A stretch of DNA of 64,000 nucleotides from a virus, in IMG/VR virus record IMGVR_UViG_3300027963_004416, positions 1-64,000 of that record. One strand, given 5' to 3'. The notes under the pieces were generated by a model. It saw only the letters and a list, made by a program, of their open reading frames with translations, was not told the origin of the DNA and did not search any database. The translations under genes and the position numbers were made by a program. Within the stretch, counting starts at the first letter, position 1; every line of letters begins with the position of its first letter. This document shows positions 20,066-44,303 of this stretch, one piece after another.

Positions 20066-20159
20066 CCTCCTGTAGTTTAATGGTAAAACACCCGGCTTAT
20101 ACCCGGCATTGGCTCTAGATGGGGGCACGTTACAGGTTCGAATCCTGTCGGGAGGACCA
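20066..20159 (+). tRNA. tRNA with UAU anticodon (Ile-type) and long variable arm
   Basis: The acceptor CCTCCTG/CGGGAGG, D-stem GTTT/AAAC, T-arm ACAGG/CCTGT and encoded CCA are all present. The anticodon loop CTTATAC reads UAU, for AUA codons. The variable region is about 24 nt with a possible GCTC/GGGC stem, which is unusual because class II arms belong to Leu, Ser and Tyr tRNAs. The anticodon stem has one C-C mismatch. Confidence 0.75.
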
Positions 20160-20167
20160 GATTAATT

Positions 20168-20250
20168 GCCCAGGTGGTGGAATTGGTAGACACGCTGGTC
20201 TTAGAAGCCAGTGCTTCGGCGTAAGAGTTCGAGTCTCTTCTTGGGCACCA
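20168..20250 (+). tRNA. tRNA-Leu (UAG)
   Basis: Class II tRNA with GCCCAGG acceptor, anticodon loop CTTAGAA and a variable arm closed by TTCG; CCA is encoded. Confidence 0.92.
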
Positions 20251-20256
20251 ATTTAT

Positions 20257-20346
20257 GGAAGTGTGGCAGCCCGGTTTATTGCAACAGTCTTGAAAACTGT
20301 CGTGCCAGCGATGGCACCGTGAGTTCGAATCTCACCGCTTCCGCCA
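20257..20346 (+). tRNA. tRNA-Ser (UGA)
   Basis: Class II tRNA with GGAAGTG acceptor, anticodon loop CTTGAAA and a long variable arm (GTGCCAGCGATGGCAC); CCA encoded. Confidence 0.92.
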
Positions 20347-20347
20347 A

Positions 20348-20421
20348 CCCGGTGTAGTTTAATGGCAGAACCGCAGCCTCCAAATCTGCATGTGGGAGTT
20401 CGATTCTCTCCACCGGGTCCA
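20348..20421 (+). tRNA. tRNA-Trp (CCA)
   Basis: Acceptor CCCGGTG/CACCGGG, anticodon loop CTCCAAA, T-loop TTCGATT, encoded CCA. Confidence 0.9.
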
Positions 20422-20423
20422 AG

Positions 20424-20451
20424 TTGACTTATATTCAATAAGCAGTATAAT
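20424..20451 (+). promoter_or_regulatory. Internal promoter in the tRNA cluster
   Basis: TTGACT, 16-base spacer, TATAAT, between tRNA-Trp and tRNA-Met. It would add transcription of the downstream tRNAs and the structured RNA. Confidence 0.6.
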
Positions 20452-20459
20452 GTACGTAT

Positions 20460-20533
20460 AGCGGGATAGTGAAATGGCATCACACAGGTCTCATAAGCCT
20501 GAGTTCTTAGTTCGAATCTAGGTCCCGCAACCA
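20460..20533 (+). tRNA. tRNA-Met (CAU), initiator-like acceptor end
   Basis: Anticodon loop CTCATAA. Counting from the conserved T8 and the T-stem, the first base is A20460, facing A at position 72; this unpaired 1-72 position is a mark of bacterial initiator tRNA. The anticodon stem (CAGGT/GCCTG) lacks the three initiator G-C pairs. An Ile-2 or elongator role cannot be excluded. Confidence 0.85.
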
Positions 20534-20539
20534 GTTTAT

Positions 20540-20615
20540 TCTCCGATAGCTCAGTCGGTAGAGCAACGGACTGTTAATCCGTGTGTCCCTGGTTCGAGCC
20601 CAGGTCGGGGAGCCA
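20540..20615 (+). tRNA. tRNA-Asn (GUU)
   Basis: Anticodon loop CTGTTAA, T-arm CCTGG/CCAGG, acceptor TCTCCGA/TCGGGGA with G-U pairing, encoded CCA. Confidence 0.92.
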
Positions 20616-20621
20616 AGTCTT

Positions 20622-20697
20622 GCCCTGTTAGCTCATTTGGTAGAGCAACGCACTTGTAATGCGTAGGTGGTCAGTTCGAATCCGACACAGGGCACCA
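20622..20697 (+). tRNA. tRNA-Thr (UGU)
   Basis: Acceptor GCCCTGT/ACAGGGC, anticodon loop CTTGTAA, encoded CCA. Confidence 0.92.
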
Positions 20698-20704
20698 GTT
20701 TTCT

Positions 20705-20777
20705 GCGAGTGTGGCGCAGTTGGTAGCGCAACGGACTTTTAATCCGCTGGTCGCGAGTTCGAGTCTCGCCACTCGTA
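20705..20777 (+). tRNA. tRNA-Lys (UUU)
   Basis: Acceptor GCGAGTG/CACTCGT, anticodon loop CTTTTAA, T-stem GCGAG/CTCGC. Unlike its neighbours it has no encoded CCA (CAA follows the discriminator A). Confidence 0.9.
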
Positions 20778-20784
20778 CAAGTTT

Positions 20785-20861
20785 CTCGGCGTAGTTCAGT
20801 CTGGTAGAATGCCTGCTTTGGGAGCAGGAGGTCGCAGGTTCGAACCCTGCCGCCGAGACCA
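20785..20861 (+). tRNA. tRNA-Pro (UGG)
   Basis: Acceptor CTCGGCG/CGCCGAG, anticodon loop TTTGGGA, encoded CCA. Confidence 0.92.
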
Positions 20862-20865
20862 AAAT

Positions 20866-20941
20866 AGGAGGTTAGCTCAGTTGGTAGAGCGTCACGCTTA
20901 CACCGTGAATGTGATCGGTTCGAACCCGGTACCTCCTACCA
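20866..20941 (+). tRNA. tRNA-Val (UAC)
   Basis: Acceptor AGGAGGT/ACCTCCT, anticodon loop CTTACAC, encoded CCA. It is the last tRNA before the structured non-coding region. Confidence 0.92.
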
Positions 20942-20949
20942 AACCCCCG

Positions 20950-21410
20950 TGTCTCCTTGGGTTTAGGAGAGGTGTGAGTTTGTGTTATGCCACAGCACTA
21001 TTGGCCAAATAGTGTCCAGAACTCTCAGGTGCCTAGTTCCACCATATGACTAGCGATTCTTAAAGATCGAATACTTTAAGCGTTATCGTCGAAGCGTTAT
21101 TAGACGTGGTCGGAGTAACCTCCCGGTCAAGTGGTTCCCCGGTAAGGAATGGCTTGACACCTATAACAGTCCTTCTGATGAGTCTTTAGGAGACGATAAC
21201 AGTAGCGCGTACAGCGAAATGGCGAGCCCTTCTTATAGGCCGTACCCAGAGTAGTCGTTACTGTCAAGGACCCGCCCCATACCTTTCGGTGTATTGGGTG
21301 CGAAGCGAAAGCTAGGGACGAAAGGGTGTATAAGTGTAGGAGCGGTCTAGAACGCGAACTGCAACCTGAGTAGCGTAACCGATTATTTTTCGTAGCAAGA
21401 GCCTACGACT
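20950..21410 (+). ncRNA. Large structured non-coding RNA candidate next to the tRNA cluster
   Basis: No credible gene lies between tRNA-Val and the convergent gene ending at 21516. The stretch is visibly richer in G+C than its surroundings and is full of perfect stems: TCTCCT/AGGAGA (20952-20970), CACTATT/AATAGTG (20996-21014), CTTAAAG/CTTTAAG (21059-21080), a long-range GTTATCGTC/GACGATAAC (21082-21090 with 21192-21200), GTCAAG/CTTGAC (21126-21158), TTCC/GGAA (21135-21149), ACAGTAGCG/CGTTACTGT (21199-21207 with 21256-21264), an AGC-GAAA-GCT hairpin (21304-21313) and TCGTAG/CTACGA (21390-21408). Size and place resemble the GOLLD and ROOL giant phage RNAs, which are often found beside tRNAs. 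Class and exact ends are not established. Confidence 0.6.
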
Positions 21411-21461
21411 TTAAATGTATTAAACTTAATCCAGTAAGTCATAGTGTCAAGGGCTGCCATA

Positions 21462-21504
21462 CAAGATGCTTTATCTTGAAATTCTAAAAATACCTTGCCA
21501 GGTA
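21462..21504. terminator. Two hairpins between the RNA and the convergent gene
   Basis: CAAGAT/ATCTTG (21462-21478) and TACCT/AGGTA (21491-21504) are perfect short stems just before the stop codon of the minus-strand gene. They could end transcription from either side; T tracts are weak. Confidence 0.35.
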
Positions 21505-21515
21505 TGTCTGCCGGA

Positions 21516-22298
21516 TTATTGATTTGCACTACTATTATTAGTAGAATCCATTTCATCTTTTGCCTCTGTCCAATAAACTATTTCCCATAATCCATCATGG
21601 TGTTCAACTAGCGCAGAGCAGCTCTCAACCCAATCACCGGTATTCATATATGTAACACCGTTAATAGTTTTAATTTCCGGTGTATGAATATGACCACATA
21701 TTATTCCGTCAAAATTTCTTTTAGCAGCATAGCTAGTTACATTTAATTCAAATTTAAATACAAAATCTACTGCTTTTTTTACTTTATGCTTTAAAAATCT
21801 AGATAAACTCCAATATCCAAATCCTAACTTATGACGCCACCAATTAAATTTAGTGTTGAGCCATAAAACACAATCATAAGCTTTATCGCCCAGGAATGAT
21901 AGCCATGGAGCTAATCTAGTTATTCCGTCGAACATATCTCCGTGAACTATTAAATACTTCTCCCCGTTTATTGATCTGTATTCTGCAGAGTTTACTATGT
22001 TAATGTTACCGAGTGAGAAGGAACCGACATATGGTCTTAAGAACTCATCATGGTTCCCAGTAACATAAGTAATCGAGGTGTTATCTCTGCTTAGTTTAAG
22101 GATTCTTCTAATAAAGGCGGAATGACTTTTTTTCCAATGCCATTTTTTTTGTTGAATTCTCCAGCCATCGATGATATCACCCACTAGAAATAAATTCTCA
22201 CAGGTATTATACTTTAAAAAGTTGGCAGCTAAATCAGCTCTGCTGTCTTTAGTTCCAAGATGTACATCAGAAATAAAAATGGATTTGTATTTTGTCAT
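21516..22298 (-). CDS. LpxH-like metallophosphoesterase
   Basis: 260 residues with the calcineurin-like motifs in order: SDVHLG, VGDIIDGW, TGNHDEF, HGDMFD and CGHIHTPE. The pattern is that of UDP-2,3-diacylglucosamine hydrolase-type enzymes of lipid A synthesis. It is on the minus strand behind a late promoter and a GGAGGGG site, so it acts late, perhaps on host lipid or on a nucleotide-linked substrate. The last 15 residues are polar and may be disordered. Confidence 0.82.
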   Translation of the reverse strand: MTKYKSIFISDVHLGTKDSRADLAANFLKYNTCENLFLVGDIIDGWRIQQKKWHWKKSHSAFIRRILKLSRDNTSITYVTGNHDEFLRPYVGSFSLGNINIVNSAEYRSINGEKYLIVHGDMFDGITRLAPWLSFLGDKAYDCVLWLNTKFNWWRHKLGFGYWSLSRFLKHKVKKAVDFVFKFELNVTSYAAKRNFDGIICGHIHTPEIKTINGVTYMNTGDWVESCSALVEHHDGLWEIVYWTEAKDEMDSTNNSSANQ

Positions 22299-22358: not shown

Positions 22359-22435
<77 letters not shown>

Positions 22436-22441
22436 GTTTTA

Positions 22442-22517
22442 GCGCTTGTAGCTTAATGGTTAAAGCAGCGGACTCATAATCCGTTGAGTGTAGGTTCGAA
22501 TCCTACCGGGCGCACCA
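22442..22517 (+). tRNA. tRNA-Met (CAU), elongator-like
   Basis: Acceptor GCGCTTG/CGGGCGC fully paired with G-U, anticodon loop CTCATAA, encoded CCA. An Ile-2 identity (lysidine-modified CAU) is possible. Confidence 0.9.
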
Positions 22518-22534
22518 ATATAAAGGAGAAGTAA

Positions 22535-22882
22535 ATGTTAACAATTATCGGTATCATTGCTGCAGCCCTAGCAGTTGCATTTGTATGGAACTATCTGGAT
22601 AAAGCAGGACTAGAATATCTAGATGATATTAAACAACCGGAGCCTCCTCCTGCTCCTGCTCCTGCCCCAGAACCAGTTAAAGAAGTTCAAAGCGTGATTA
22701 TTACAGATAACTCCGAGGTTTCAGATATTAAGATCGAACTGCCTCCTGAGCCAGCTCCTGTGGTAGAAGAACCAGCTCCTGTAGTAGATGAGCCTGTTGT
22801 ACAGGAAGTAGTGGAAACTAAGCCTCCTGTTGCTAAGAAACCTGGTCGTAAACCTGGTCGTAAGCCAGCCGCTAAAAAGTAA
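22535..22882 (+). CDS. Membrane-anchored proline-rich protein with basic tail
   Basis: 115 residues. A single N-terminal membrane helix (about residues 3-18) leads into Pro/Glu/Val-rich repeats (PAPAPAPEP, EPAPVVEE) and ends in a basic KPGRKPGRKPAAKK tail like tandem AT-hook cores. It lies between two tRNA genes behind a good AGGAG site. It may tether DNA or RNA to the membrane; no family is recognised. Confidence 0.7.
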   Translation: MLTIIGIIAAALAVAFVWNYLDKAGLEYLDDIKQPEPPPAPAPAPEPVKEVQSVIITDNSEVSDIKIELPPEPAPVVEEPAPVVDEPVVQEVVETKPPVAKKPGRKPGRKPAAKK

Positions 22883-22887
22883 TATTT

Positions 22888-22975
22888 GCCCGGGTGGTGA
22901 AATAGGTAGACACAGCAGACTTAAAATCTGCCGCCTTAAAACGGCGTACCGGTTCGATTCCGGTCCCGGGCACCA
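22888..22975 (+). tRNA. tRNA-Leu (UAA)
   Basis: Class II tRNA: acceptor GCCCGGG/CCCGGGC, anticodon loop CTTAAAA, variable arm GCCTTAAAACGGC, encoded CCA. Confidence 0.93.
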
Positions 22976-22989
22976 ATTAAGGAGTAAGC

Positions 22990-23460
22990 ATGCTAAAAAT
23001 AGATATTAATGAAGTAAAAGAGTTTATCGAAGCACAAGGCCCTAGCACAAAAATTTATATTGGTGGCGACTCTGAAAGATTCATTAATAACAATATTTGG
23101 TATGCTGATTACACACTCGCAATAGTAGTACACATTGACGGAAGACATGGTTGCAAGCTCTTTGGCGAAGTTCAAAGAGAACGCGATTATGATCAAAGCA
23201 AGAACCGCCCAAGAATGCGGCTAATGAATGAAGTATATAAAGTTGCAGAGCTGTATTTAAAACTACAAGAAGTTCTAGAAGATAGAGATGTTGAAGTTCA
23301 TCTAGATATTAATCCAAGTGATCTTCACGGTTCGAGTTGTATTATTAACGAGGCAGTAGGATATATTAAGGGCATGTGCAATGTTACACCCCTTATTAAG
23401 CCTCAAGCGTTTGCAGCGAGTTATGCTGCTGATAGGATTAAAGAAGTATTGGCTGCCTAG
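22990..23460 (+). CDS. RNase H-like protein (YkuK/DUF458 type)
   Basis: 156 residues. IYIGGDSERFINNNIWYADYTLAIVVHID opens an RNase H-like beta sheet with the first Asp, and VHLDINPSDLHGSS carries a second acidic strand. This pattern matches the YkuK/DUF458 family. Activity is unknown; it could process RNA. Its TAG stop shares its last base with the first base of tRNA-Gly. Confidence 0.7.
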   Translation: MLKIDINEVKEFIEAQGPSTKIYIGGDSERFINNNIWYADYTLAIVVHIDGRHGCKLFGEVQRERDYDQSKNRPRMRLMNEVYKVAELYLKLQEVLEDRDVEVHLDINPSDLHGSSCIINEAVGYIKGMCNVTPLIKPQAFAASYAADRIKEVLAA

Positions 23461-23533
23461 CGGGATTCGTAAAATGGTATTACCCTAGCCTTCCAAGCTA
23501 GAGTCGCGGGTTCGATTCCCGCATCCCGCTCCA
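23460..23533 (+). tRNA. tRNA-Gly (UCC)
   Basis: Acceptor GCGGGAT/ATCCCGC, anticodon loop CTTCCAA, encoded CCA. Its first base is the last base of the upstream stop codon. Confidence 0.92.
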
Positions 23534-44087: not shown

Positions 44088-44303
44088 ATGAGCAATCAAC
44101 GTGAGATGGTTCTTGACAGTCAGATGGATGTTCTGGATAGCGCAATCATCGCCATCGGTCGTGCGATTCAAGAACTGGATAGCGGTGATCGCTGGTGCGA
44201 TTTGGATACCAATGATGCGATCTTGAAGCTCGAAGCGATTCGTCAAGAACTGACAGATCAGTACATGCTTATCGAAGACGAATTGCGTCAAATCGAGGCT
44301 TGA
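44088..44303 (+). CDS. Coiled-coil protein, tandem paralogue 1
   Basis: 71 residues (SNQREMVLDSQMDVLDSAII... DLDTNDAILKLEAIRQEL). Acidic, fully helical. It shares its plan, spacing and many residues with the next gene, so the two are tandem duplicates, each with its own promoter. Confidence 0.7.
   Translation: MSNQREMVLDSQMDVLDSAIIAIGRAIQELDSGDRWCDLDTNDAILKLEAIRQELTDQYMLIEDELRQIEA

Follow-up and report, generated by a model that had tools for sequence, protein, structure and literature searches.

The plus-strand RNA that directly follows the tRNA-Val gene of a phage tRNA array (positions 20942-21382, about 441 nt) probably represents a phage RNA family built round a type I hammerhead ribozyme, which would cut the array transcript after position 21265 and thereby free an RNA headed by a conserved 3' domain. 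The window (the whole 64,000-nt stretch of DNA that was analysed) is part of a virus record of 145,707 bases. Judged from the comparison of homologous sequences, the centre of the RNA is very probably a variant of the type I hammerhead ribozyme with new partner domains. The features of the locus are listed in the table.

Table. Features of the structured RNA and of its surroundings (positions in the window)
Feature	Position	Strand	Basis or remark
Predicted sigma-70-like promoter TTGACT-16-TATAAT, in tRNA array	20424..20451	+	11/12 consensus matches
tRNA-Val (TAC)	20866..20941	+	ARAGORN; structured RNA starts directly 3' of it
5' domain, ~227 nt	20942..21168	+	compensatory changes among L228, L244, L260, L248, L259, L258, L167
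5'-domain helix P4	20996-21002/21008-21014	+	covarying
5'-domain helix P5	21059-21065/21074-21080	+	covarying
5'-domain helix P7a	21126-21131/21153-21158	+	covarying
5'-domain helix P7b	21135-21138/21146-21149	+	covarying
Type I hammerhead core	21169..21271	+	descriptor, shuffles, covariation, model R1, Rfam match of L245
Stem I	21169-21174/21266-21271	+	
CUGAUGA strand	21175-21181	+	
Stem II	21182-21186/21190-21194	+	
G12-A15.1 strand GAUAA, one inserted U (U13a = 21197)	21195-21199	+	
Stem III, one perfect 9-bp stretch	21199-21207/21256-21264	+	
Structured stem III enlargement	21208..21255	+	7/10 distinct sequences; absent from compact copies
Predicted self-cleavage site GUC^A, H17 = C21265	21265..21266	+	inferred from H17 in the hammerhead model
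3' domain, ~117 nt, begins at predicted cut	21266..21382	+	alignments, covariation in its helices
3'-domain hairpin helices, strongly conserved	21273-21279/21295-21302, 21280-21283/21288-21291	+	C-G/U-A covariation
3'-domain small hairpin	21304-21306/21311-21313	+	A-U/G-C covariation
57-aa protein gene	21383..21556	-	homologues follow metallophosphoesterase gene, about 40 viral contigs (tblastn)
Metallophosphoesterase gene	21516..22298	-	PHROG metallo-phosphoesterase, E 7.4e-10

The tRNA array is preceded by regA and the genes for the sliding clamp gp45 and the clamp loader gp44, and a gene for a family B DNA polymerase comes after it; these genes indicated a T4-like phage. ARAGORN placed ten tRNA genes at 20066-20941 and then four at 22359-23533, and the structured RNA lies between tRNA-Val and a pair of genes on the opposite strand. 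The promoter predicted within the array was also present in two relatives (L228 and L244), and in a third (L247) a perfect consensus promoter stands immediately before the ribozyme; the plus strand is therefore likely to be transcribed, and the promoter at 20424-20451 is the likely source of the RNA transcript.

The arrays of these phages held other unusual tRNA-related genes. Genes for tRNA-Ile (TAT) of 92-95 nt, seemingly with a long class II-like variable arm, were recurrent (window 20066-20159, L228 619-712, L258 1822-1915, L002 6924-7018 and L054 13601-13692), and a tRNA with the anticodon CTA (called Pyl by ARAGORN) at 9917-9991 of L247, within an array of 30 tRNAs, is a possible amber suppressor. 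In L167, the interval from tRNA-Cys to tRNA-Asp contains a non-coding stretch rich in stems (197-354), which may be another structured RNA of such arrays. ARAGORN also called permuted tmRNA genes in phage contigs (L086 7280-7606, L093 1673-2106, L094 3518-3963, L031 13780-14191, L150 2717-3128 and L151 1527-1965); the tags were partly plausible (ANDSQFALAA, ANDSVYALAA) and other tmRNA calls were doubtful.

A sequence-only reading of this locus had described positions 20942-21515 as a GC-rich, gene-free, structured non-coding RNA beside the tRNA genes. Up to position 21382 this description was borne out, with no plausible gene and a G+C content of about 0.47-0.50 compared with about 0.33-0.39 in most neighbouring genes; positions 21383-21515 turned out to be the 3' end of the 57-aa minus-strand gene. 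Given that this open reading frame is conserved behind the metallophosphoesterase gene in about 40 contigs it is a real gene, and since the same RNA end is shared with L228, the RNA is about 441 nt long and not 574. In L228, which has no metallophosphoesterase/57-aa pair at this locus, the RNA (1413-1856, 95% identical to window 20943-21382) stops at the same place, and a short spacer separates it from tRNA-Arg. By this comparison the two-gene cassette is an insertion beside the RNA in the window that L228 does not have. The 57-aa gene overlaps the metallophosphoesterase gene, the cassette recurs in other settings (about 40 viral contigs), and the 57-aa protein has a conserved NNPxDxPG...WxKFxxFK...C pattern and no clear family. 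A small open reading frame starting MSDGGKGS was found directly after the RNA in L244 and L245 and one tRNA later in L248, and the site 3' of the RNA seems to collect inserts.

The support for structure comes from the comparison with relatives and not from folding energy, as the folding-energy z-scores (-1.44 for the 574 nt and -1.25 for the corrected stretch) were not beyond chance and, by thermodynamic z-scores, the plus strand folded only slightly better than the minus strand. That comparison favoured the proposal that a structured, non-coding RNA lies next to the tRNAs: the compensatory changes on which the earlier reading had made its proposal depend were found in the ribozyme and in both the 5' and 3' domains. 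Stems are numerous in the RNA, and covariation shows several of them to be real. Of the two perfect 9-bp long-range helices in the earlier reading, 21199-21207/21256-21264 is stem III of the hammerhead, whereas 21082-21090/21192-21200 is mismatched in L228, L244 and L260 and looks like a coincidence. The closing helices of the minimum-energy structure (20984-20990/21373-21379 and 21024-21030/21364-21370) were likewise rejected, being strong yet broken in relatives. This calls for caution, given that energy-based folding did not make the structure stand out and preferred long-range helices at odds with a handful of relatives.

The predicted core reads GUCCUU-CUGAUGA-GUCUU(UAG)GAGAC-GAUAA-CAGUAGCG...CGUUACUG-U-C^AAGGAC in the window, and the minimum-energy structure of this 103-nt piece is exactly the hammerhead junction. 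In the compact copy of L245 the core is GUCCUU CUGAUGA GUCUUCAGGAGAC GAAA CGGUAGUUUACUACCGUC^AAGGAC. The strand C3 U4 G5 A6 N7 G8 A9 of the hammerhead is CUGAUGA in the window and CUGAYGA or CUGAAGA in all homologues; the A15.1-U16.1 pair followed by H17 (not G) corresponds to A21199-U21264 and C21265 in the window and to UC or UA in all homologues. A strict type I descriptor matched once in the window; no match arose when the 64-kb window was shuffled 300 times or the RNA segment 20,000 times, and at looser settings the homologues alone were matched among 2.5 Mb of loci.

Covariation was examined in an alignment of nine copies that was made with the hammerhead model in mind and in which inner stem III and some loops were trimmed by hand; in this alignment 98.6% of the cells in the ribozyme stems and 3'-domain helices were paired, compared with 33-45% when the partners were slid. 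Stems I-III were found in type I order, with helices 1-3 paired in 95.6-98.4%. Seven pairs were changed on both sides compared with 2.7 in shuffles, and 0/500 shuffles reached seven in a control that ignores the relatedness among the nine copies. The slid-partner control and the descriptor result agree with this outcome and thus point in the same direction despite the kinship-blind shuffle and the model-guided alignment. Pairs changed on both sides were located in stem II (two) and stem III (three), and stem I is nearly invariant among these copies.

The sequence of L245 aligned end to end with the Rfam model Hammerhead_1 (RF00163) at 30.7 bits (E 3.9e-6). This is the best score of any copy and lies just below the gathering cut-off of 34 bits, which is a curated threshold and not a feature of the ribozyme. 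The window's own copy scored 17 bits, against the type III model RF00008; this type III alignment was rejected given that it leaves no stem I hairpin, and type I was preferred because it accounts for all stems. An alternative for L248 and L259 with a GAAA further along was set aside, stems II and III being weaker.

Pattern scans of IMG/VR returned ten homologous records from nine distinct viruses, all of them uncultivated phages, and in every one the homologue of the RNA was located inside a tRNA array. The whole RNA is present in L228, L244 (and L246, identical to it over 4.2 kb) and L260, and L258 has the entire RNA in more diverged form. An open reading frame separates the 5' domain from the ribozyme in L248 and L259, L167 and L245 have a compact ribozyme plus the 3' domain (about 180 nt), and L247 is a remote homologue. 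A covariance model (R1) seeded with nine sequences, the window included, recovered L247, which was not in the seed, at E 1.2e-10 and found one copy in the window's own genome. No record with the RNA was obtained by following the synteny of the clamp-loader or metallophosphoesterase genes, in agreement with the lack of R1 matches in 31 metallophosphoesterase-related and 46 clamp-loader-related records, and no DNA similar to the RNA was found in annotated GenBank phages. In genome contigs the longer pattern gave no match and the shorter pattern 16 matches, 0/16 of which passed the hammerhead descriptor; L257 was similarly a chance pattern match without a descriptor match.

The RNA is better conserved than its surroundings. 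Between the window and L228 no base differs over 102 nt of the ribozyme; identity is 97% for the 3' domain, 93% for the 5' domain and no more than 73% for the adjacent regA gene. In L260 the 5' domain matches that of the window at 95% identity while the neighbouring genes share no similar DNA, and the module therefore appears to move between phages. One could go further and regard it as a mobile or selfish RNA hitchhiking in tRNA arrays, with the ribozyme serving its own spread, for instance through a circular RNA. This same pair of sequences, together with the shuffling of parts relative to one another and to open reading frames (L167, L248), would fit such a scheme, which we nevertheless judge highly improbable: each copy has one ribozyme and lacks a second cut site for a unit-length RNA, the genome holds a single copy, and no link to a reverse transcriptase or ligase was seen. 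RNA ligase PF09414 was not found in this genome; a search with PF09511 gave no match, its control being silent too.

Both partner domains are structured in their own right, and neither matched any Rfam family when the window and its homologues were scanned. The 5' domain is separable from the ribozyme (L248, L259, L167), and its helix P7b occurs among relatives as UUCC/GGAA, CUCG/CGAG, CCCG/CGGG and CCUG/CAGG. In the 3' domain the hairpins are followed by AGGGAYGAAA, one of three alternative middle parts and the end GUARCRYAACCG. Conservation of this domain in L247, L248 and the later finds is partly built in because these were detected by 3'-domain patterns; L167 and L245 were detected otherwise. 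In the stem III enlargement, the alignment gave the pairings UGG/CCA in the window and L258, CGG/CCG in L248 and AUGGA/UCCAU in L260.

The core itself differs between copies. The strand G12 A13 A14 A15.1 is GAAA in L167, L245, L260 and L247, the last combined with a U10.1-U11.1 mismatch. In the window, L228 and L244 it reads GA-U-AA, with U13a inserted, and L248, L258 and L259 have a GUAA core paired with a GUA cut site and all stems kept, a combination for which we know of no precedent. Given the insertion in the window core and the GUAA/GUA combination in these three records, some copies of the ribozyme may be slow or inactive. The hammerhead might even be a relic, kept as a three-way junction that does not cut in the GAUAA lineage, so that the uncut RNA would act as a scaffold or regulator. 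The altered cores in 6/10 distinct sequences (GAUAA in the window, L228 and L244; GUAA in L248, L258 and L259) and the conservation of the 5' and 3' domains in their own right speak for this; we consider it unlikely, as the U-H cut site, the CUGANGA strand and the three stems are retained even in the variant copies, and as U13a is among the core variants described in natural hammerheads, where it is argued to point out of the core and to be tolerated (Perreault et al. 2011, PMC3088659). The U10.1-U11.1 mismatch has been described in natural hammerheads as well (PMC3088659).

Cutting could also be regulated. The minimum-energy fold of the canonical copies L245, L167 and L260 buries the CUGANGA strand in a competing hairpin (CUUCUGA/UCAGGAG), which counts against the self-cleaving reading and is a possible off-state. 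Stem III in its enlarged form, alone or together with the 5' domain, might further be a natural sensor of a ligand, a protein or the state of a tRNA that controls cutting by the hammerhead, an idea that we regard as decidedly unlikely. The enlargement is absent from the compact canonical copies and most expanded copies have altered cores, L260 combining the enlargement with a normal core; this co-occurrence is compatible with a sensor and is not a demonstration of one. If true, the phage would encode an allosteric ribozyme deciding when the array transcript is cut and the 3'-domain RNA released.

On hammerhead cleavage the upstream product ends in a 2',3'-cyclic phosphate and the downstream product starts with a 5'-hydroxyl. 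In the self-cleaving ribozyme that we favour, the RNA would be transcribed within the tRNA array, stems I, II and III would fold round CUGAUGA and GA(U)AA, and the RNA would cut its own strand after position 21265. The polycistronic transcript would be split into an upstream piece with the tRNAs, the 5' domain and the ribozyme, ending in the cyclic phosphate, and a downstream piece with a 5'-hydroxyl, headed by the conserved 3' domain. As structured modules, the two flanking domains would probably influence what becomes of each piece, and our best guess is that the freed 3' domain protects or regulates the downstream transcript. A direct role at the 3' end of the upstream tRNA, as proposed for theta ribozymes (PMC10879173), would be suggested by the position of the module, which in most homologues begins within about ten bases of the tRNA's encoded CCA, with a promoter in between in L247. 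Such a role fits poorly and is quite improbable, because from the end of the tRNA to the predicted cut there are 324 nt in the window, 64 nt in L167 and 57 nt in L245.

These findings assign phage hammerheads to a definite location, tRNA arrays in T4-like phages and related ones, with two conserved domains outside Rfam adjoining and natural core variants side by side. A role of the ribozyme thereby becomes directly testable, and the question is raised of a self-cutting RNA that processes a phage tRNA operon and of the purpose of the released 3' domain.

The earlier reading had suggested GOLLD or ROOL, or else a new class. To our knowledge a hammerhead core has been described in neither of the two. 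Neither GOLLD (RF02032, conserved 3' region) nor ROOL (RF03087) was matched in the Rfam scan, which admitted E values up to 10, or when the whole genome was searched with each family singly, for ROOL without a positive control, and membership was thus not supported; the second suggestion came nearer, as two RNA domains without Rfam match are joined to a ribozyme of a known class. The RNA resembles GOLLD and ROOL as a large structured phage RNA by a tRNA island, where both are often found (PMC12286853), and unlike them it is built round a predicted self-cleaving ribozyme and has compact versions. A divergent cage RNA of the GOLLD or ROOL kind would share the setting in phage tRNA islands and the similar size; with a hammerhead core at the centre, homologues down to about 180 nt (L167, L245) and the negative searches, it is extremely improbable.

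With known type I hammerheads (RF00163; also RF03152, RAGATH-1-hammerhead) the family shares the CUGANGA strand, the stem order and the U-H cut site, and natural phage and bacterial examples, together with the U13a and U10.1-U11.1 variants, have already been described (Perreault et al. 2011, PMC3088659). It differs from them in being located inside tRNA arrays, in a stem III enlarged to a structured domain, in the conserved 3' domain that always follows and the conserved 5' domain that often precedes, in the GUAA cores of some copies and in a best score just under the Rfam cut-off. The hammerhead of Pseudomonas phage PaP3, a core variant studied in the same work (PMC3088659), is similarly an intergenic, hammerhead-like phage motif (CUGAUGA...GAAA at 44106, minus strand); it lies outside the PaP3 tRNA cluster at 1628-1954, and companion domains were not seen with it. 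No report of hammerheads in phage tRNA arrays was found in the open-access PMC literature; the family is perhaps new in this respect, phage hammerheads and tRNA-adjacent theta ribozymes being known already. The HDV-like theta ribozymes are also small self-cleaving ribozymes by tRNA genes of tailed phages and cut within 5 nt of the tRNA end (PMC10879173). They belong to another ribozyme class, and no HDV-type fold was matched by Rfam in the window RNA. In theta ribozymes the cut falls at the 3' end of the tRNA, whereas the predicted cut of the present family lies 57-324 nt away and would release a conserved RNA domain.
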